Shown here in pieces: positions 8,916-20,452 of a DNA stretch of 64,000 nucleotides. The notes under the pieces are model-generated. The model did not search any database and was not told the DNA's origin. It saw nothing but the letters and a program-made list of their open reading frames with translations. Source of the stretch: Dickeya poaceiphila (lineage in GTDB: Bacteria; Pseudomonadota; Gammaproteobacteria; Enterobacterales; Enterobacteriaceae). The DNA lies in contig NZ_CP042220.2 in NCBI RefSeq assembly GCF_007858975.2, positions 310,001-374,000 on the forward strand, given 5' to 3'. Made by a program: the position numbers and the translations under genes. Position 1 is the first letter of the stretch. Each line of letters begins with the position of its first letter.

Positions 8916-10175
8916 ATGAATCTTACCGAATTAAAAAATACGCCAGTATCTGAGTTGATTACTCTTGGCGAGAATATGGGGCTGGAGAATCTGGCTCGTA
9001 TGCGTAAACAGGATATTATTTTCGCTATCCTTAAGCAGCACGCAAAAAGTGGTGAAGACATCTTTGGCGATGGCGTACTGGAAATATTGCAGGATGGTTT
9101 TGGTTTCCTCCGTTCCGCAGACAGTTCCTACCTCGCCGGCCCTGATGATATCTACGTTTCCCCTAGCCAAATCCGACGCTTCAACCTCCGCACTGGCGAT
9201 ACTATTTCCGGTAAGATTCGTCCTCCGAAAGAGGGTGAGCGCTATTTTGCACTGCTGAAGGTCAACGAAGTCAACTACGACAAACCGGAAAATGCCCGTA
9301 GCAAAATCCTGTTTGAAAACCTGACGCCGCTACATGCTAATTCGCGTCTGCGTATGGAGCGCGGTAACGGCTCTACTGAAGACCTGACGGCTCGTGTGCT
9401 GGATCTGGCTGCGCCGATTGGTCGTGGACAGCGTGGTTTGATCGTGGCACCGCCGAAAGCCGGTAAAACCATGTTGCTGCAAAATATCGCTCAAAGCATC
9501 GCTTACAACCATCCTGATTGTGTATTGATGGTGCTGCTGATTGACGAACGTCCGGAAGAAGTGACGGAAATGCAGCGTTTGGTGAAAGGGGAAGTGGTGG
9601 CGTCAACCTTTGACGAACCGGCTTCTCGCCATGTTCAGGTTGCCGAAATGGTGATCGAGAAAGCCAAACGTCTGGTTGAGCACAAGAAGGACGTCATTAT
9701 CCTGCTGGACTCTATCACTCGTCTGGCGCGTGCTTACAACACCGTGGTACCGGCGTCCGGCAAGGTGCTGACCGGGGGGGTTGACGCTAACGCCCTGCAT
9801 CGTCCGAAGCGTTTCTTCGGTGCGGCCCGTAACGTCGAAGAAGGCGGCAGCCTGACTATCATCGCCACTGCGCTTATTGATACCGGTTCGAAGATGGACG
9901 AAGTGATTTACGAAGAGTTCAAGGGCACCGGTAATATGGAATTGCACCTGTCTCGTAAGATTGCAGAGAAACGAGTGTTCCCAGCCATCGACTACAATCG
10001 TTCTGGTACTCGTAAGGAAGAGCTGTTGACCACGTCTGAAGAGCTGCAGAAGATGTGGATTCTGCGCAAGATCATCCATCCGATGGGCGAGATCGATGCG
10101 ATGGAGTTCCTTATCAACAAGCTGGCGATGACCAAAACCAACGACGAGTTCTTCGATATGATGAAACGCTCCTAA
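8916..10175 (+). CDS. rho: Transcription termination factor Rho
   Basis: A 419-residue hexameric RNA-dependent ATPase/translocase, the same length as E. coli Rho. The N-terminal domain ([19 protein letters not shown]) and the OSB-fold primary RNA-binding site (about 48-120, including GFGFLRS) are followed by the RecA-like motor: Walker A APPKAGKT near 178-185, Walker [18 protein letters not shown]-loop around [19 protein letters not shown] and the R-loop. No insertion domain is present. It is followed immediately by an intrinsic terminator. Confidence 0.98.
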
Positions 10176-10193: not shown

Positions 10194-10219
10194 AAAACGC
10201 CACGATATCGTGGCGTTTT
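10194..10219 (+). terminator. Rho-independent terminator after rho
   Basis: The 26 bases 10194-10219 are a perfect palindrome (halves AAAACGCCACGAT and ATCGTGGCGTTTT) with a closing TTTT. It sits about 20 bases past the rho stop and separates rho from the ECA cluster. Confidence 0.85.
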
Positions 10220-10401
10220 GCGTTGTCAGCCTGGTATGCGGTAGTTGGCATTTTCGAACACACAGCCCTCTTTGAGAGCTGAGCTGTATAATGGTTTTGT
10301 TGCTCGGATGTGCAAGAACTTTCTGAAAATTTTGGTAAATTGACGCCGATAGGCTCAATTACCGGTAGTATTATCAGGCGCTGATAAATGTGTTATGAAT
10401 C

Positions 10402-10576
10402 ATGATGGGTGCCCAATTAGTCGCCGTATTCCTGTGCTCTGTCTTACTCACTGCTGATGGTTGGCGGTGTCTCTGTCTACATCTGCGTTTGCCTGCTATT
10501 GTTCCTGGTTTACCTTATATGCGCGGATGCGTTGGTTAGCACGCTGGATCGCTTTGATACCAGTATTGGTGTGTAG
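10402..10576 (+). pseudogene. wecA: Decayed fragment of wecA (UDP-GlcNAc:undecaprenyl-phosphate GlcNAc-1-P transferase)
   Basis: wecA normally fills the space between rho and wzzE; here only 473 bases remain. One frame from ATG 10402/10405 gives a hydrophobic stretch (GAQLVAVFLCSVLLTA) resembling the first WecA membrane segment. The frame from 10451 then reads VGGVSVYICVC and YLICADALVSTLDRFD before TAG at 10574-10576. These match the WecA segments VGGISVY and YLACAG...LDDRFD, with a frameshift between them, an internal deletion and loss of the last two thirds of the protein, including the conserved aspartate-rich cytoplasmic loops. No functional product is possible. The rest of the gap holds a dyad at 10371-10387 and no other gene. 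Confidence 0.72.
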
Positions 10577-10648
10577 GTAGCGTTACTATCGAAGTCATCG
10601 CTATTGTTGATAAACCGAAATTGTGAATAAACCAAATAGGAAAACTTC

Positions 10649-11671
10649 ATGAAACGGGAAACACTCCCTCAGGCGATGCCGCTGGATGATGAACTGGATG
10701 TTCGCCTGCTTTGTCAGGTGCTCTGGCAGGGAAAAGTTTGGGTTGTCGGTTTTGCGGTGCTATTTGCGCTGCTGGCGTTGGTTTATTCCTGGCTGGTACA
10801 GCCGGTGTGGCGTACCAGCGCGGTTACCGATAAACCGGCGGCAGCCATGTTGTCGTCGTTCTTTGAACAGCAACAGTGGCTACATTCGCTGGATGCGTCG
10901 GAAACCATATTTGATGGTAACGCGATTGTGGAAGATGCCTATACCGAATTCACGATGCAGGCCGCCGCTTACGATACCCGGCGTGAGTTCTGGCTACAGT
11001 CGCCTTATTACCGCGAACATCGCAAAGGCGACGACAAGGCGGATGCCATTTTGCTGGATTCTCTGATCGACGATATTCAGTTTATGCCGCGTGATGTTGC
11101 AAAAAAAACCAACGATACCCTCAAATTGGCCGCTGATAATCCGCAAGATGCCAGTAATCTGTTACGGCAATATGTGCAATTCGCTAACCAGCGTGCCGTT
11201 AATCACCTTAATCAGAATCTGGCCGGAAACTGGGCAGCGCGTATCCGATTTGAGCGCATTTTGCTGCAACGAGAAGAGACGGTCGCGCGTGCTGCTTATG
11301 ATCAGGAGCTAAAGCGTGTGACACAAGCGCTCGCGATTGCCCGCCAGCAAGGGATTACTGAGCCGAAAGGCGAGGATCTGTCTGATTCGGCGCTGTTTTT
11401 ACAGGGGGATTCCTGGTTACAGGCGCGTCTGGACATGTTGAAGGCGAATGGGCCGGAATTTGACGCCGATTACGCGCCACGTCAGTCGGTTCTGACGATG
11501 CTGGAAGCCGGTCCGGTGCTGGCAGACCGCTTTCAGACGTACCGCTATCTGCATACGCCGGAAGAGCCGGTTCAGCGCGACAGTCCGCGCCGCGGTTTTC
11601 TGGTGCTGATGGGGAGCTTCATTGGCCTGCTGGTGGGCGCTGGTCTGGTGCTGGTGCGTCGCTCCATCTGA
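10649..11671 (+). CDS. wzzE: ECA polysaccharide chain-length modulator WzzE
   Basis: A 340-residue inner-membrane Wzz-family co-polymerase (348 in E. coli) that sets the repeat number of enterobacterial common antigen. Membrane helices lie at about 33-53 (VWVVGFAVLFALLALVYSWL) and near the C-terminus (FLVLMGSFIGLLVGAGLVLV), with a long periplasmic part rich in charged helices between. The C-terminal PxxPxxP-like stretch PEEPVQRDSPRRG precedes the second helix, as in other Wzz proteins. AGGAAAAC provides the ribosome site. It is now the first intact gene of the ECA operon, since wecA is broken upstream. Confidence 0.93.
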   Translation: MKRETLPQAMPLDDELDVRLLCQVLWQGKVWVVGFAVLFALLALVYSWLVQPVWRTSAVTDKPAAAMLSSFFEQQQWLHSLDASETIFDGNAIVEDAYTEFTMQAAAYDTRREFWLQSPYYREHRKGDDKADAILLDSLIDDIQFMPRDVAKKTNDTLKLAADNPQDASNLLRQYVQFANQRAVNHLNQNLAGNWAARIRFERILLQREETVARAAYDQELKRVTQALAIARQQGITEPKGEDLSDSALFLQGDSWLQARLDMLKANGPEFDADYAPRQSVLTMLEAGPVLADRFQTYRYLHTPEEPVQRDSPRRGFLVLMGSFIGLLVGAGLVLVRRSI

Positions 11672-11751: not shown

Positions 11752-12873
11752 GTGAAAGTCTTGACGGTTTTTGGCACTCGCCCTGAAGCGATAAAAATGG
11801 CGCCCATAATAAGGGCGATGGCTCAGGATGCTTTCTTTGAATCCCGCGTTTGTGTGACAGCACAGCACCGTGACATGCTTGATCAGGTGCTGAGCCTGTT
11901 TGAGATTATGCCGGACTACGACCTCAATATAATGCAGCCGGATCAGGGGTTGGTGGAGATTTCTTCACGTATTCTCTCTGGTCTGGGGTCGGTGTTGACC
12001 CAGTTCCAGCCTGACCTGCTGCTGGTGCATGGCGATACCACCACCACCCTGATGGCGAGTCTGGCGGCGTTCTACCATCGTATTCCGGTTGCCCATGTCG
12101 AAGCCGGACTACGTACCGGCAAGCTGACATCCCCCTGGCCGGAAGAGGCTAATCGTCTACTGACCGGGCATATAGCTACCTATCACTTTGCACCAACGAT
12201 CACGGCGCGGCAGAATTTGCGGCGGGAACAGGTTCCGGCTTCCCGTATCTGGGTAACAGGCAATTCGGTGATTGACGCCTTGTTCTGGGTTCGGGATCGG
12301 ATTACTCATGATGGTGAATTGCACGCGCAATTGCAGGAGAAGTACGCCTTTCTGGAACCGGAACGAAAAATAATTTTGGTTACCAGCCATCGGCGGGAGA
12401 GCTTTGGCGCGGGGATGGAACGAATTTGTCACGCGCTGGCGGTACTCGCTCAACATCATCCGGATATCCAAATTGTCTATCCGGTACACCGAAATCCCAA
12501 CGTGCTGGAGCCGGTTCAACGTATTCTCAGCGGCATTGATAACGTGTTTTTGATAACGCCGCAGGACTATTTGCCTTTTGTCTATCTGATGCATCGCGCC
12601 TGGCTGATCCTGACGGATTCCGGGGGAATTCAGGAAGAGGCGCCTTCGCTCGGAAAACCTGTGCTGGTGATGCGCGAGACTACCGAAAGGCCAGAAGCGC
12701 TGGCCGCTGGTACCGTGCGGTTGGTGGGAACCGATACTGCGACTATCATCCGAGAGGTTTCCCGCCTGCTGGCAGATGCGTCTATTTATCAGGCAATGAG
12801 CTATGCGCATAACCCCTATGGCGACGGGTTAGCCAGCCAGCGAATTCTTTCTGTTTTGAAAAACACCGGGTAA
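11752..12873 (+). CDS. wecB: UDP-N-acetylglucosamine 2-epimerase
   Basis: A 373-residue cytoplasmic enzyme (376 in E. coli) of the GT-B fold that interconverts UDP-GlcNAc and UDP-ManNAc, the first step toward the ManNAcA residue of ECA. The N-terminus [20 protein letters not shown] is diagnostic; [25 protein letters not shown] and [20 protein letters not shown] are the family substrate-binding motifs. It starts at GTG 11752 after GAGAGTCACCA. It is followed 4 bases later by wecC. Confidence 0.97.
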
Positions 12874-12877
12874 CTGC

Positions 12878-14140
12878 ATGAGTTTTAATCGTATCTGTGT
12901 GGTGGGCCTGGGGTATATCGGCCTGCCGACTGCCGCATTGTTGGCATCACGGCAACAACCTGTTTTTGGTGTGGATGTGAACCCGCACGTGGTGGAGACC
13001 ATCAACCAGGGCCATACTCATATTACAGAGCCGGGCCTGGCACAGACGGTGCAACTGGCGGTGGCGCAAGGGTATTTACAGGTCGGCACTCATCCGGTGT
13101 CGGCGCAGGCGTTTCTCATCGCGGTGCCGACCCCGTTAAAAGCGGGCCATCAGCCGGACATCTCGTTTGTTGAAACGGCTGCTTTGTCACTGGCGTCGGT
13201 GTTAAAACCGGGAGATGTGGTGATTCTTGAATCGACTTCGCCGGTCGGCACCACAGAGCAGATGGCAGCCTGGCTGGCGCAAGCGCGCCCGGATCTGAGC
13301 TTTCCCCAGCAGGTGGGTGAAGCGTCGGATATTCGTATTGCCTATTGTCCGGAACGGGTGTTGCCTGGCCGTATCATGGAGGAGCTGCTCAGTCAGGAGC
13401 GGGTGATAGGCGGGATGACGCCGCGTTGCGCAGCGCGGGCCAGCGAGTTGTATCGCCTTTTCCTTGATAGGGACTGTGTGATGACCGATGTGCGCACCGC
13501 AGAGATGTGCAAGTTGACAGAAAACAGCTTTCGGGATGTGAATATTGCGTTCGCTAATGAATTGTCGCTGATTTGTGCCGAACAACATATTGATGTGTGG
13601 ACGCTGATTCAACTAGCTAATCGCCACCCGCGCGTCGATATTTTGCAGCCGGGACCGGGCGTCGGCGGCCACTGCATCGCGGTTGACCCGTGGTTTATCG
13701 TGTCTCAGCACCCGCAACAGGCACGCCTGATTCGTACTGCCCGCGAGGTGAATGATGCCAAACCACGCTGGGTGATGGAGCGGGTGAAGATTATGGTGGC
13801 AGAGGCGCTGGCGCAGAGGGGAAATCGTGCTTGTGAACTGCGCATCGCCTGTCTGGGGCTGGCATTCAAGCCTGATGTGGAAGATCTTCGCGGAAGTCCG
13901 GCGCTGGCGATTGCGGAACAGATTGCCGAATGGCATGTCGGGATTACCTGGGTCGTTGAGCCGAATATCCGGCAGTTGCCGCCTGGGTTACAGGGAAAAG
14001 CGAGGTTAGTGAATATTGATCTCGCGCTGAGTGAAGCGGATATGTTGGTGCTGCTGGTGGATCACCGGCAGTTCAGGGCGCTTGCCCCTGAACAGGTAGC
14101 GCAACGTTGGGTGGTGGACACCAAAGGCGTCTGGCGGTGA
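12878..14140 (+). CDS. wecC: UDP-N-acetyl-D-mannosamine dehydrogenase
   Basis: A 420-residue NAD-dependent UDP-sugar 6-dehydrogenase that oxidises UDP-ManNAc to UDP-ManNAcA for ECA. The Rossmann motif GLGYIGLPTAALLAS is at residues 10-24; ESTSPVGTTE and TENSFRDVNIAFANE are the central helices; the catalytic cysteine is in PGVGGHCIAVDPW; the C-terminal domain contains GLAFKPDVEDLRGSPAL. In E. coli rffG and rffH follow, but here only 47 bases separate wecC from wecD. Confidence 0.97.
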   Translation: MSFNRICVVGLGYIGLPTAALLASRQQPVFGVDVNPHVVETINQGHTHITEPGLAQTVQLAVAQGYLQVGTHPVSAQAFLIAVPTPLKAGHQPDISFVETAALSLASVLKPGDVVILESTSPVGTTEQMAAWLAQARPDLSFPQQVGEASDIRIAYCPERVLPGRIMEELLSQERVIGGMTPRCAARASELYRLFLDRDCVMTDVRTAEMCKLTENSFRDVNIAFANELSLICAEQHIDVWTLIQLANRHPRVDILQPGPGVGGHCIAVDPWFIVSQHPQQARLIRTAREVNDAKPRWVMERVKIMVAEALAQRGNRACELRIACLGLAFKPDVEDLRGSPALAIAEQIAEWHVGITWVVEPNIRQLPPGLQGKARLVNIDLALSEADMLVLLVDHRQFRALAPEQVAQRWVVDTKGVWR

Positions 14141-14187
14141 AGCGGCGTCGGTGACCTCTGTTGATTCGGCGTTAACCGGAGTGACCT

Positions 14188-14904
14188 ATGCCTGTGAGTG
14201 CTGAGATGTGTGCGGAAATTGAACCTCTGGTATGGGAAAGTGATTTTTTCCAGCGTATCAGTGGAAGGTTGAGTTTCACCGATACCGCACCGCCGTTAAC
14301 CTTTACTGAGCTGGATCGCTATGAGTTATGTCAGGCTAAACTGGCGGCAGACGATTTGGTGACGGCAGATGCACTGTTTGCGCTGGGGTTCCGGCTGGCG
14401 GAAGGCGAGGTGGATTTCAGTATGCCGGTTGTCCCTGCTGCCAGGGCGGTGTTTGCCGTTGGCGTTCGGGAGGCTGAAGTCGGCGATATCCCGGCGCTGC
14501 GTGCGGCGGCGGCAAAAAGTTTTGTGCTGAGCCGGTTTCGGGCGCCGTGGTATCGACCGGATGATTGTGGCCGTTTTTACGCTCGTTGGGTAGAGAAAGC
14601 GGTATACGGCACCTTTGATGACGCTTGTCTGGTGCTGGGGGTACAAGGTGGGCCGCTGCAAGGGTTTGTCACTTTACGCCAGACATCGCCAAACTCGGCG
14701 CGCATCGGCGTGTTGTCCGCCTGGCCGGGTATGACCGGGCAGGGAATTGGGCAACGGTTGATGCAGGTGGCGCGGGTCTGGTGCCAGCAACGTGGTATTC
14801 GCCGGCTGACGGTGGCGACGCAGACCAGTAATCTGGCGGCTTTACGGCTCTATCTGCGCAGCGGCGCACGGGTGGAGAGCACCGCCTACTGGTTTTATCG
14901 ATGA
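14188..14904 (+). CDS. wecD: dTDP-fucosamine acetyltransferase
   Basis: A 238-residue GNAT-family enzyme that N-acetylates dTDP-4-amino-4,6-dideoxygalactose to give dTDP-Fuc4NAc, the third ECA sugar donor. The C-terminal half carries the acetyl-CoA-binding pattern (MTGQGIGQRLMQVARVWC) and the closing GNAT strand (TQTSNLAALRLYLRSGA). The N-terminal part (VWESDFFQRISGRL) matches WecD proteins. It follows wecC directly because rffGH are missing, and precedes wecE by 18 bases. Its substrate must therefore derive from dTDP-sugar enzymes encoded elsewhere. Confidence 0.92.
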   Translation: MPVSAEMCAEIEPLVWESDFFQRISGRLSFTDTAPPLTFTELDRYELCQAKLAADDLVTADALFALGFRLAEGEVDFSMPVVPAARAVFAVGVREAEVGDIPALRAAAAKSFVLSRFRAPWYRPDDCGRFYARWVEKAVYGTFDDACLVLGVQGGPLQGFVTLRQTSPNSARIGVLSAWPGMTGQGIGQRLMQVARVWCQQRGIRRLTVATQTSNLAALRLYLRSGARVESTAYWFYR

Positions 14905-14922: not shown

Positions 14923-16053
14923 ATGATTCCTTTTAATGCGCCGCCGGTGGTGGGATCGGAACTGGAATATATGCGGGCGGCGATGCGCAGCGGTAAAATC
15001 AGCGGTGATGGCGCCTTTACCCGCCGTTGTCAGCAATGGCTGGAACATTACTCTGGCAGTGGCAAAGTGCTGTTGACGCCGTCCTGCACCGCATCGCTGG
15101 AGATGGCGGCGTTATTGCTGAATATCCAACCCGGCGATGAAGTCATCATGCCGAGCTATACCTTCGTTTCGACCGCCAATGCTTTTGTGCTGCGTGGCGC
15201 CACCATTGTGTTTGTCGATATCCGTCCCGATACCCTCAATCTTGATGAAAACCATATTGAAGCGGCGATTACAAAAAAGACGCGCGCCATTGTGGTGGTG
15301 CATTACGCCGGGGTGGGTTGCGAGATGAGCGCTATCATGGCGTTGGCGCAACAGTACGGCCTTTTTGTGGTGGAGGATGCGGCACAGGGGATGATGTCGC
15401 ATTATCAGGACCGGCCTTTGGGCGCTATCGGCCATATCGGTTGTTTTAGTTTTCACGAAACCAAGAATTACACCGCCGGCGGCGAAGGCGGTGCGACGCT
15501 GATTAACGACCCTGAACTGGCGGCGCGCGCCGACATTATCCGTGAGAAAGGCACCAACCGCAGCCAGTTTTTTCGTGGACAGGCGGATAAGTACACCTGG
15601 CGCGATATCGGCTCCAGTTATCTGATGGCGGATATTCAGGCCGCTTACCTGTGGGGGCAACTGGAGGTGGCGCAGCGTATTCATGACCGGCGTCTGACGT
15701 TATGGCAACACTATGCGCGGGCATTTGCACCGCTGGCGGCGCTGGGTCGGGTGACATTGCCGGTGATTCCGGCAGACTGCCGTCACAATGGTCACCTGTT
15801 TTTCCTGCGTCTGCGTGATGAGGCAGAACGCTCAGCGTTTATCAGCCATATGAAAGAAGCGGACATACTGGCGGTGTTCCACTACATTCCTTTGCATTCC
15901 AGTCCGGCTGGTCGGCAATTTGGGCGCTTTGTCGGCGAAGATAGGCATACTACGCGGGAAAGCGAACGGCTGGTACGTCTGCCGTTGTTCTACAACTTGT
16001 CTGATCTTAACCAGCGTACTGTCATCCATTCGGCGCTGAGTTTCTTTTCCTGA
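14923..16053 (+). CDS. wecE: dTDP-4-amino-4,6-dideoxygalactose transaminase
   Basis: A 376-residue PLP-dependent sugar aminotransferase (DegT/DnrJ/EryC1 family, fold type I), the same length as E. coli WecE, which transfers the amino group of glutamate to dTDP-4-dehydro-6-deoxyglucose. The start MIPFNAPPVVGSELEYM is typical. Visible sites: TPSCTASLEMAALLL for phosphate binding, VVEDAAQGM with the PLP-contacting aspartate, and the Schiff-base lysine in SFHETKNYTAGGEGG. The stop overlaps the wzxE start (TGATG). Confidence 0.96.
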   Translation: MIPFNAPPVVGSELEYMRAAMRSGKISGDGAFTRRCQQWLEHYSGSGKVLLTPSCTASLEMAALLLNIQPGDEVIMPSYTFVSTANAFVLRGATIVFVDIRPDTLNLDENHIEAAITKKTRAIVVVHYAGVGCEMSAIMALAQQYGLFVVEDAAQGMMSHYQDRPLGAIGHIGCFSFHETKNYTAGGEGGATLINDPELAARADIIREKGTNRSQFFRGQADKYTWRDIGSSYLMADIQAAYLWGQLEVAQRIHDRRLTLWQHYARAFAPLAALGRVTLPVIPADCRHNGHLFFLRLRDEAERSAFISHMKEADILAVFHYIPLHSSPAGRQFGRFVGEDRHTTRESERLVRLPLFYNLSDLNQRTVIHSALSFFS

Positions 16054-17303
16054 TGTCGCTGGCACGGGCATCACTGTGGACGGCGGCTTCAACGCTGGTC
16101 AAAATCGGCGCGGGGCTGGTGATCATCAAACTGCTGGCGGTGGCGTTCGGTCCGGAAGGCGTCGGGTTGGCCGGTAACTATCGCCAGTTGATCACCGTGC
16201 TGGGGGGGATGGCCTGTGGGGGGATTGTCAACGGCATTACCCGTGCGGTGGCTGCCGCGCCGCCTGCGCCTGATCGCCCCAGTCCATTGCTGGGAACGGC
16301 GGTGTCGCTGTCGATGGGGTTTTCGCTATTGCTGGCGCTATCGCTGGGGTTGCTGGCTGCGCCGCTGTCACGCCTGTTGTTTGGCGATGACGGCTACCAG
16401 CCGGTCATTGTGGCACTGGCCTGGCTGCAACTGGGGATAGCTGGTTCCAGCCTGCTGCTGGCGATCCTGAAAGGGTATCAGGATGCGCAAGGCAATGCGC
16501 TGGCGGTGATGGCGGGCAGTCTGCTGGGCGCGGTGGCGTATGGCGTTAGTTTCTGGTTGGGGGAGTATACCGGCGCACTGGTGGGCCTGGCGCTGATGCC
16601 CGCACTGGTGTGCCTGCCTGCGTTAGCGTTGTTATTGCGGCGCACGCCATTAGGTTTGCGAGCACTCACACCTTCATGGTCGTGGCCGCTGGCTGGTCAG
16701 TTAACCCGGTTCAGCCTGATGACGTTGATAACCGCGGTGACGATGCCGGTAGGCTATGTGATGATGCGAAACCTGCTGGCAGCTCATTATACCTGGCAGG
16801 ACGTCGGGCTATGGCAGGGGATGACGACCATTTCCGATGTCTGGCTGCAATTCATTACCGCCTCGTTTACGGTTTATCTGCTGCCTGCGCTGGCGCGACT
16901 GCAAGATAAGACCGCGATCCGGTATGAGATTTTCAGCGCATTACGGTTTGTGCTGCCGATGGCGGCGTTGATGGCCGTGGTTATCTGGCTAATGCGCGAT
17001 ATAGCGATTCACTTACTGTTTTCCGGCGCGTTTTCGGCCATGCGTGACCTGTTTGTATGGCAGCTGGCGGGTGATGTATTGAAAGTAGGCGCTTACGTTT
17101 TTGGTTATCTGGTGGTGGCCAGAGCCTCGCTGCGGTTCTATGTGCTGGCTGAATTGGGGCAGTGTCTGTTGTTGGGCGGGTTTGCCCGCTGGCTGATTCC
17201 ATTGCATGGCGCGCTGGGCGCATCACAGGCGTATCTGGCAACCTATGCGGTCTATTTTTTGTTGTGTTGCGGCGTTTTCATGCTGTATTGCAGGCGAGCA
17301 TGA
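16053..17303 (+). CDS. wzxE: Lipid III (ECA) flippase WzxE
   Basis: A 416-residue polytopic membrane protein of the MOP/PST flippase family, the same length as E. coli WzxE, that moves the lipid-linked ECA trisaccharide across the inner membrane. About 12 hydrophobic helices can be read; the N-terminal pattern [20 protein letters not shown] and the charged loop [14 protein letters not shown] are characteristic. The start overlaps wecE by one base and the stop overlaps the wecF start (ATGA at 17300-17303), so translation is coupled. Confidence 0.95.
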
Positions 17304-18385
17304 CCACACTTATCCATGTTCTGGGGGCGGATATTCCCCACCATAACCACACGGTGCTGCGTTTCTTTAATGATACGCTGGCACCGTCGCTGCCATTGCA
17401 TCAGACGCGACGGTTTATGGTGGTGTCGGCGACTGAACTCTCCAGGCATACCTATGCGATGCTGCATATAACACGCTTTGCTAGCCAGAAAGCGCTGGCG
17501 CGCGCTGTGGTCGCGCAGGCGCGGGCAGATCGCACCGTCCGCTTCTTTTTTCACGGCCAGTTTAACCCCTGGTTGTGGCTGGCGTTGCTGTGTGGCGGTA
17601 TCCGCACCACGCAGGCATACTGGCATATCTGGGGCGCGGACCTGTATGAAGAGGCCCATGGCTGGCGCTACCGCTGGTTTTACCGTCTGCGGAGGTTGGC
17701 GCAACGCCGGGTCGCGCAGGTGTTCGCTACGCGCGGCGATATCGACTATTTCCAACGCCGCTACCCGGCGGCGTTGGCGTCGCTGCTCTATTTTCCCACC
17801 CGCATGAACCCGTACGACGTGCGTACACATGAAAAAGCGCCGGACGCACCGTTGACCATTCTGGTCGGCAACTCCGGTGATCGCAGTAACCGCCATCTGG
17901 CGGCGCTGGACGCCATTCATCGTCAGTGTGGCGCGCAGGTGCGGGTGATCGTGCCGATGGGGTATCCGGCAGACAATCATGCCTACATTGAGCAGGTGTC
18001 ACAGCATGGGCTGGCGTTATTTGGTGCTGAGCGCTGCCGTATTCTGCGCGAATCGTTGGCGTTCGACGACTATCTGGCGTTGTTGCGTACCTGCGATCTG
18101 GGTTACTTTCTGTTTCATCGTCAGCAGGGGATCGGCACGCTGTGTTTGTTAATTCAACTGGGTATACCGTTCGTTATCAGTCGTCATAACCCATTCCGGC
18201 AGGATTTGGCGGAACAGCGCCTGCCGGTATTGCTGGGCGAGGAGGAACTGAACGAGGCCATGGTGCGTGACGCCAGCGAGCAACTGATGCGGGTGGATAC
18301 CCGGCAGATTGCGTTCTTCAGCCCCGGCTATGAACAAGGGTGGCGACGGGCGTTGGCGCTGGCAGCGGGAGACGGCGATGACTGA
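17300..18385 (+). CDS. wecF: dTDP-Fuc4NAc:lipid II transferase
   Basis: A 361-residue glycosyltransferase (family GT56, E. coli 359) that adds Fuc4NAc to lipid II, finishing the ECA repeat unit. The start [20 protein letters not shown] at 17300 matches WecF; the frame is open further upstream, but that stretch lies inside wzxE. Conserved segments include [43 protein letters not shown] and [13 protein letters not shown]. The stop overlaps the wzyE start (ATGACTGA at 18378-18385). Confidence 0.95.
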
Positions 18386-19718
18386 GTGGACGTTTTTCGG
18401 GTTGTGGCTGGTCTGGCTGGGGGGCAGCGGCGTGGTGTTGTGGCTCTGCGGGCGTGAGTTCCGCCGTTGTCGTTTCAACTTCAACGTGCTGTTTTCATTG
18501 CTGTATCTGCTGACGTTCTATTTCGGTTTCCCGTTGACGGCTTTACTGGCGTTTCGCTTCGGCGTTGAGACGGCCTCGCCACTGAATTTATTGCTGGCGC
18601 AGCTGTCCGCCACGGCGTTTTATGTCATCTATTATGCCGGTTATAAAATACGGCTACGATCCGTGTCGTCGGTCACTCGTCCGCTACCGCTGACCATGAC
18701 GCGGCTGGAAGTCCTTATCGCCTGTGGGTTGCTGGCAATGGTGGCGCTGACGACCACCGCGGTGTTCTTTGCCAACAACGGCTTGTTGTTGTTCAAACTC
18801 GGTTCTTACAGCCAGATTTTTTCTCGTGATGTCGCCGGTGTTGCCCTGAAACGCTTCTTTTACTTCTTTATTCCCGCCATGTTGATGTGGTATTTCCTGC
18901 ATCAGACCCGACGCGCCTGGCTGATTTTCCTGTTGGCGACGGTGGCGTTTGGCGGGTTGACTTATCTGCTGGTGGGCGGCACGCGTGCCAATCTCATTAT
19001 CGCTTTTGCCTTATTTCTGTTTATCGGCCTGCAACGCGGCTGGATAGCGCTGTGGATGCTGGCAGCGGCAGGCTGCGCCGGTATTGTGGCGATGTTCTGG
19101 CTGGCGCTTAAGCGTTACGGTCTGGATGTGCACGGTGACGAGGCGTTTTACACCTTCTTGTATCTGACGCGAGATACCTTTTCGCCGTGGGAAAATCTGG
19201 CCGTGTTGTGGCAGCACCTTGACCAGATTACCCTGCAAGGGCTGGCACCCATCGTGCGGGATTTTTATGTGTTTATTCCCGCCTGGTTGTGGCCGGAACG
19301 GCCTGCGCTGGTGCTTAATAGCGCCAATTATTTCACCTGGGAAGTGCTGAATTATCATGCCGGGTTGGCGATATCGCCGACGTTGCTCGGTTCGCTATTG
19401 ATCATGGGCGGCCCGCTGCTTATTCCGCCAGGTGCGGTCATCGTCGGCTTGCTTATCAAGGGGTTTGATGGGCTTTACCGCTACGGACGGCAGGTGGAAA
19501 ACCGCTATCTGTCCGCCGTGTTGCAGGCGTTTTGCTTTGGTGCGGTGTTTAATCTGATCGTGCTGGTGCGCGAAGGCGTCGATGCGTTTGTTTCGCGGCT
19601 GGTGTTTTTCTGTCTGGTCTTCGCTGCCTGTTTGCTGATTGCTAAGCTGCTGTACTGGCTATTGTTGCGCGCCGGTGTGGTCGTTATCCGCACCCCGTCT
19701 CAAGGAGAAGGGAAATGA
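18378..19718 (+). CDS. wzyE: ECA polymerase WzyE
   Basis: A 446-residue integral membrane polymerase (450 in E. coli) that links ECA repeats in the periplasm. It has about 11 hydrophobic segments and conserved stretches [32 protein letters not shown] and [14 protein letters not shown], with a large periplasmic loop in the C-terminal half. ATG 18378 is chosen because it overlaps wecF in the usual coupled arrangement; the frame is open upstream only inside wecF. The stop overlaps wecG (ATGA). Confidence 0.94.
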
Positions 19719-20452
19719 ATAATGCGTTGCCGCAATACGTTATCCGCGGCATTCCGCTGCAGGGTTTTCGGGATAGGGAACAATGCGTGTCGATGCTGTT
19801 TTCGGGCGGTTCGCCGCGTCCGGGAACGCTGATTGCCATTAACGCCGAGAAGGTGCTGGCTGCCGATCACGATACGACATTGCGTGAACTGATGCTACAG
19901 GAAGGGCATTGTAACTATGCCGATGGTATCAGCGTGGTGTGCTCCATTCGCCGCAAGTACCCAGGCGCACAGGTGCAGCGCATCGCCGGCGCGGATCTGT
20001 GGGAGGCGCTGATGCAGCGCGCTGGTCAGCAGGGTACGCCGGTATTTTTACTGGGGGGAAAACCGTCAGTGTTAGCAGAAACCGAACGTAAGCTGCGTGA
20101 ACAGTGGCAGGTCAACATTGTGGGAACACAGGATGGTTATTTCACGCCGCAGCAGCGTCAGACAGTCCTGGAGCATGTGCGTGACAGTGGCGCTCAACTG
20201 GTGACGGTAGCGCTGGGTTCCCCCCGACAGGAATTACTGATACGTGATTGCCGTCAGTTACACCCCAATGCGCTCTATATGGGGGTGGGCGGTACTTATG
20301 ATGTGTTTACCGGGCAGGTTAAACGCGCCCCTGTGGCATGGCAGCGCTATGGGGTGGAATGGCTATATCGTCTGTTGACGCAACCCAGCCGTTTTCGTCG
20401 TCAGGTTAAATTATTACGTTATTTGGCCTGGCATTTCAGCGGTAGGCTTTAA
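19715..20452 (+). CDS. wecG: UDP-ManNAcA:lipid I transferase
   Basis: A 245-residue WecG/TagA/CpsF-family glycosyltransferase (GT26) that adds ManNAcA to undecaprenyl-PP-GlcNAc (lipid I) to make lipid II. Family features are [54 protein letters not shown] and [17 protein letters not shown]. The hydrophobic/basic C-terminus suggests membrane association. Its acceptor is normally made by WecA, which is broken at this locus. It is the last ECA gene. Confidence 0.95.

Follow-up and report, generated by a model that had tools for sequence, protein, structure and literature searches.

A decayed wecA at the ECA locus of Dickeya poaceiphila and its probable displacement by a WecA from an EPS cluster

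ECA is generally regarded as a near-universal feature of Enterobacterales, made from an operon that is close to self-contained. In Dickeya, a locus of ten ECA genes was reported in 51 of 54 strains (PMC7877592), and in all the D. zeae genomes of PMC8386352. In PMC7877592, the wzzE of D. zeae NCPPB 2538 is given as a pseudogene, and a Musicola strain (then D. paradisiaca NCPPB 2511) is described as lacking both wecA and wzzE from its ECA locus; the main text of that paper lacks the string NCPPB 569, the type strain of D. poaceiphila. According to a section of PMC7439462, O-antigen in many Enterobacterales likewise draws on the wecA of the ECA locus, and a passage of PMC12212991 reports no ECA in strains without wecA. 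For Pectobacterium, an excerpt of PMC12227328 describes an EPS cluster in which WecA is named alongside Wza and Wzc. In open-licence literature, judged mostly from listings, no displacement of wecA was recognised.

The genome of D. poaceiphila analysed here (G000; one contig of 4,317,154 bases, 100% complete) carries its ECA locus in the window, meaning the whole stretch of 64,000 nucleotides at G000:C1:310001-374000 (Table 1). It was compared with six Dickeya congeners in which an intact wecA stands between rho and wzzE (G002, G003, G004, G005, G007 and G008). The distance from the rho stop to the wzzE ATG is 473 bp in the window, as against 1321-1544 bp in these congeners, where it contains an intact wecA. 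In alignments that took in 18 bp extra, from the rho stop and wzzE, the window's interval is colinear with congener DNA through the palindrome, the leader and, in frame, wecA codons 1 to approximately 15. A loss of 77 bp then shifts the frame, and the inner block has further losses of 27, 6 and 3 bp before it ends in a TAG at 10574-10576. Roughly 750 bp are missing after this TAG; the final wecA codons and the spacer up to wzzE then follow. The total loss is about 850 bp, with the 3' break placed by eye from one alignment and the tail put elsewhere by another alignment setting. Pieces of the interval were also found in order by blastn in all six congeners, with E values of 4e-46 to 2e-34 for the leader part, and a best E at the 3' end ranging from 1e-12 (L053) to only 0.01 (L048, L052). 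The leader is identical to each of the six congeners at 79-86 of 108 columns, compared with 89-103 of 108 among the congeners themselves. A consensus promoter scan of the rho-wzzE interval returned no match on the plus strand, and the palindrome downstream of rho, seen in the alignment, was not reported by the consensus scanner.

Table 1. Features of the ECA locus of D. poaceiphila, with positions in the window
Feature	Position	Strand	Basis
rho, intact left neighbour	8916..10175	+	419-aa open frame; 99.8% identity in 8/8 congener loci
terminator-type palindrome 3' of rho	10196..10217	.	seen in alignment; kept in six congeners
leader of lost wecA, partly conserved; presumed ECA-operon promoter region	10290..10401	+	
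wecA pseudogene	10402..10612	+	initial codons with the start, out-of-frame inner piece, final codons; alignments and rate test
wzzE, ECA chain-length regulator	10649..11671	+	NF008645, 490.8 bits, cut-off 332
wecB, UDP-GlcNAc 2-epimerase	11752..12873	+	TIGR00236, 525.1 bits, cut-off 210
wecC, UDP-ManNAc dehydrogenase	12878..14140	+	NF008286, 720.3 bits, cut-off 459
wecD, dTDP-Fuc4N acetyltransferase	14188..14904	+	NF008212, 325.8 bits, cut-off 219
wecE, transaminase	14923..16053	+	TIGR02379, 656.4 bits, cut-off 435
wzxE, lipid III flippase	16053..17303	+	NF011679, 655 bits, cut-off 325
wecF, Fuc4NAc transferase	17297..18385	+	NF002753, 617.1 bits, cut-off 470
wzyE, ECA polymerase	18378..19718	+	NF002820, 720 bits, cut-off 510
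wecG, ManNAcA transferase using lipid I	19715..20452	+	NF002980, 409 bits, cut-off 323

Lying between rho and wzzE and colinear with intact homologues, the wecA of this ECA locus is a pseudogene. Several losses of such size in a complete, single-contig genome are not base-calling errors. Hence, although the strain is represented here by a single assembly, it is exceedingly improbable that an intact wecA between rho and wzzE was broken by sequencing or assembly, given that the losses are separate, base changes are spread out, and the pieces remain in order. A plasmid search using the locus gave 32 records, and the 20 of them that were listed match the query only at its rho end.

The remnant combines its broken frame with a loss of coding constraint. 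At columns invariant among the six congeners, changes private to one genome were counted by codon position, in the remnant only up to the TAG, as the placement of the tail differs between the two alignments. Counted over first and second codon positions, the remnant has changed at 16 of 96 (95% limits 0.10-0.26), or at 8 of 72 (0.05-0.21) once six bases beside gaps are left out, these few positions making the limits wide. The nine ECA genes of the same genome have changed at 114 of 5148 such positions (Fisher p 1e-9 against the remnant; 2e-4 without gap edges), and each congener's intact wecA, taken in turn as a control, at 4-26 of 590-612. The rate in the remnant is close to that at the third positions of the ECA genes (160 of 1307; 0.122), hence its drift is about neutral, and the native wecA is long dead.

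The nine reading frames 3' of the remnant are all open, with wecF and wzyE starting inside longer listed frames. Their joint terminal dN/dS is 0.114 in G000, versus 0.076-0.167 in the six congeners. Gene by gene, the G000 values, which as the smallest three-point estimates from Nei-Gojobori counts are rough, are 0.05-0.17, except for 0.32 in wzxE; this gene gave 0.24-0.26 in five of six congeners and 0.12 in the other, and some values for congeners are undefined. That the ECA genes were constrained while the remnant drifted about neutrally means that the operon stayed under constraint for much of the time that wecA has been dead. The initial annotation, made from the window's letters, correctly read WecA-like peptide segments, a frame break, an early TAG and an internal loss between rho and wzzE, where the gap aligns in order with the wecA DNA of intact Dickeya loci. 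It was also right that the nine downstream genes look intact, each being open and past its family cut-off, and that the locus alone cannot start ECA, wecA there having decayed. Its suggestion of an operon at an early stage of decay is not favoured, given the disparity in rates between the remnant and the congener-like ECA genes.

Variation around wzzE was observed in other genomes. In G005 this gene is split over two frames (L053 14422-15437), while in G001 and G006 (L054, L055) rho, wecA and wecB stand in a row with no match to wzzE, and WecB is 74-75% identical to that of the window.

A search of G000 for PF00953 found only two genes. The gene at 693791 matches mraY in sequence and in its neighbour, and the other is an intact wecA of 357 codons at G000:C1:3602548-3603618 on the minus strand, 3.27 Mb from the ECA locus. 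Its product scores 478.2 bits against ECA_wecA (TIGR02380), for a cut-off of 326.05, and agrees with E. coli WecA at all 13 functional positions examined (conserved Asp, Arg and His, in what we take to be the E. coli numbering). Each of eight other Dickeya genomes has a single WecA, 50-53% identical to this protein, and Pectobacterium proteins reach up to 69% identity; a search of solved structures with it gave no match at 0.001. Another initiating transferase elsewhere in the genome, an option raised at the outset, is therefore present as an intact WecA, and with it a loss of ECA does not follow from the decay at the locus. As substitutes, transferases of the PF02397 type, presumably of an enzyme superfamily other than WecA's, were set aside: G000 has two full and one truncated, but a true WecA is present. 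The truncated gene (114 aa, lacking its 5' part; L088 7138-7482, G000:C1:3627137-3627481, minus strand) adjoins rmlBADC; G007 has a gene of 185 aa at the matching place (L090 8921-9475), the DNA being colinear and 88% identical up to the break.

The remaining pathway steps are likewise encoded. Neither rffG nor rffH lies between wecC and wecD (window 14140-14188), as in the congener loci fetched, whereas rmlA and rmlB, which pass a family cut-off, are found elsewhere in G000 at about 3.63 Mb, along with another rmlB at about 2.78 Mb; redundancy of rml genes, as with rmlA and rmlB outside the operon, is described in a section of PMC7439462. Hence all ECA enzymes are encoded in this genome, with WecA, rmlA and rmlB in trans.

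The second wecA is the first gene of an EPS cluster, with wza, wzb and wzc downstream. Of these, wza and wzc pass their family cut-offs, while wzb, scored in a shortened form, reached 218 at best against a cut-off of 243. Further genes encode glycosyltransferase-like and hydrophobic proteins, including a putative flippase and polymerase, named by look only, which had no NCBIfam match at 1e-60. A JUMPstart/ops element matches L003 13660-13685 on the minus strand, approximately 40 bp upstream of the wecA start codon, and was found in none of 200 shuffles; the consensus is the one we assume for this element, and a first pattern that left no room for an indel had no match upstream of this wecA. 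GC content is 0.41 over the 20-kb EPS stretch and 0.43 in its wecA, compared with 0.57 in the ECA operon, and six of the eight other Dickeya genomes have only the other wza-type cluster. The low GC, the single WecA of each congener and the other wza-type cluster in six of them suggest that the EPS cluster was probably acquired by transfer. It may itself be decaying, as IS3-type transposase reading frames lie inside and beside it (L003 5915-6754 and 15159-17391). A perfect array of 9.4 TGGTC copies, possibly phase-variable, is located at L003 14284-14330, approximately 665 bp upstream of the start of the EPS wecA.

In a tree of 51 WecA sequences, some with long branches that leave the outer joins unsure, proteins of ECA loci form a group of 22 (100/99), 20 of them so labelled and two without known context. 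A second group of 27 (98/88) comprises 14 second copies, 12 database proteins without known context and the G000 WecA, which pairs with one Musicola and one Dickeya protein (100/100). Judged by this tree, the EPS-cluster WecA is separately descended from that of the ECA locus. At the 14 second-copy loci, wza lies directly downstream in eight, and a JUMPstart-like element with at most three substitutions upstream in 11; three ECA-locus controls had neither. Among 392 genomes drawn from the family, 24 have a match to the EPS WecA with an E value of 1e-120 or lower; this threshold was placed where the listed values jump from 7e-127 to 9e-118, and more distant second copies lie below it. All but one of these 24 have two WecA genes, the exception being G000 with one, and in the 11 of the 23 two-WecA genomes that were checked for it, the other copy adjoins wzyE. 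A draw of 198 family genomes contained 129 with wzyE and 132 with WecA at 1e-50, these lists apparently coming from the same draw and being compared by eye. WecA and wzyE share a contig in 120 of the 129, roughly 8-12 kb apart. The remaining nine comprise G000, where the two are 3.27 Mb apart; G022 and G193, with no WecA at 1e-50; G032 and G138, with the genes on separate draft contigs; and G060, G112, G147 and G179, in which WecA is present with coordinates not listed. G193 was discarded as a further genome without WecA, as frame breaks in its wecA region, wecF and rhlB were read as poor sequence.

The most probable reading, to which we assign a probability of roughly 0.72, is that the native wecA has been displaced by this separately descended WecA, which now supplies ECA in trans. 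The wecA of the ECA operon would have died long ago, its role passing to the WecA at the head of the probably acquired EPS cluster. This enzyme would provide GlcNAc-PP-undecaprenol (lipid I) to EPS synthesis and also, acting in trans, to WecG and the later ECA steps, with the dTDP-sugar steps likewise supplied by rmlA and rmlB from elsewhere. As the ECA-locus wecA serves O-antigen in other Enterobacterales, according to the section of PMC7439462 cited above, supply in the reverse direction is plausible. On this reading, we infer that the substrate of the EPS-cluster WecA is UDP-GlcNAc, that its gene is expressed, and that the strain produces ECA.

Standing ECA genes are nevertheless no proof that ECA is made. 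In G022, approximately 480 bp separate rho from wecB (L102 6509-6990), without wecA and wzzE, while wecB to wecG are in place within the limits of the stretch fetched. A WecA query of G022 gave no match at 0.001, the score of its single PF00953 gene resembles that of the G000 mraY, and a search of its genus for WecA, which covered G022 alone and had no positive control, also gave no match. As read from its genome, G022 shows that an ECA operon can apparently persist for at least some while in the absence of WecA, which is the main reason that confidence in displacement is not higher. The pathway in D. poaceiphila may instead have died with wecA, the EPS WecA serving EPS only and the ECA genes being intact through delay. 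The Musicola locus described in PMC7877592 and the loss of many genes described for D. poaceiphila, in the part of PMC10319131 cited here, would both fit this, and the IS3-type frame inside the EPS cluster may similarly count against displacement. We nevertheless consider such a loss of ECA unlikely, as the remnant has drifted about neutrally while the nine ECA genes, open and past their cut-offs, keep a congener-like dN/dS, and the same cell has a complete WecA.

It is less probable still, and distinctly so, that the ECA genes are kept for another use, such as WecB's UDP-ManNAc entering another glycan, or a polymer built on another lipid-linked sugar. There is precedent in E. coli, where a WecB-dependent, WecA-independent glycan is the phage N4 receptor (in a passage of PMC12212991), and the two full PF02397-type transferases of G000 would be compatible with it. 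However, this would explain the constraint on wecB, and not that on wecD, wecE, wecF, wzyE and wecG (terminal dN/dS 0.05-0.17).

The initiating step of ECA has seemingly been handed to an EPS cluster. This provides a natural experiment on whether lipid I forms a common pool, and the handover may tie ECA to EPS regulation. Tentatively, and at somewhat less than even odds, ECA has been rewired: with its sole initiating enzyme in a probably acquired EPS cluster behind a JUMPstart/ops element, and no longer in its own operon, it could depend on RfaH-type anti-termination and share its lipid I supply with EPS. For the reading of genomes, a wecA missing from the ECA locus should not be equated with loss of ECA, just as standing ECA genes, as in G022, do not mean that ECA is made.

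This locus resembles several described systems, while differing from each. It shares with the ten-gene Dickeya ECA (wec) locus the flanks rho and yifK, the order from wzzE to wecG, and the lack of rffG and rffH inside, but the wecA of that locus is here a pseudogene. It shares with the Musicola NCPPB 2511 locus of PMC7877592, which that of G022 probably resembles, a set of ECA genes without wecA at the locus; yet unlike G022, in which no WecA was found anywhere, G000 has both a wecA remnant and a replacement. With 52% identity to E. coli WecA, the second WecA retains the family match and the examined positions of that protein, but it belongs to the second WecA group, and lies in an EPS cluster rather than between rho and wzzE. 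In this it is like the WecA-Wza-Wzc clusters of Pectobacterium named in the excerpt of PMC12227328, as wecA is accompanied by wza and wzc. Unlike the usual carriers of such a second WecA, for which it is additional in 23 of the 24 sampled genomes, G000 has it as its sole WecA.
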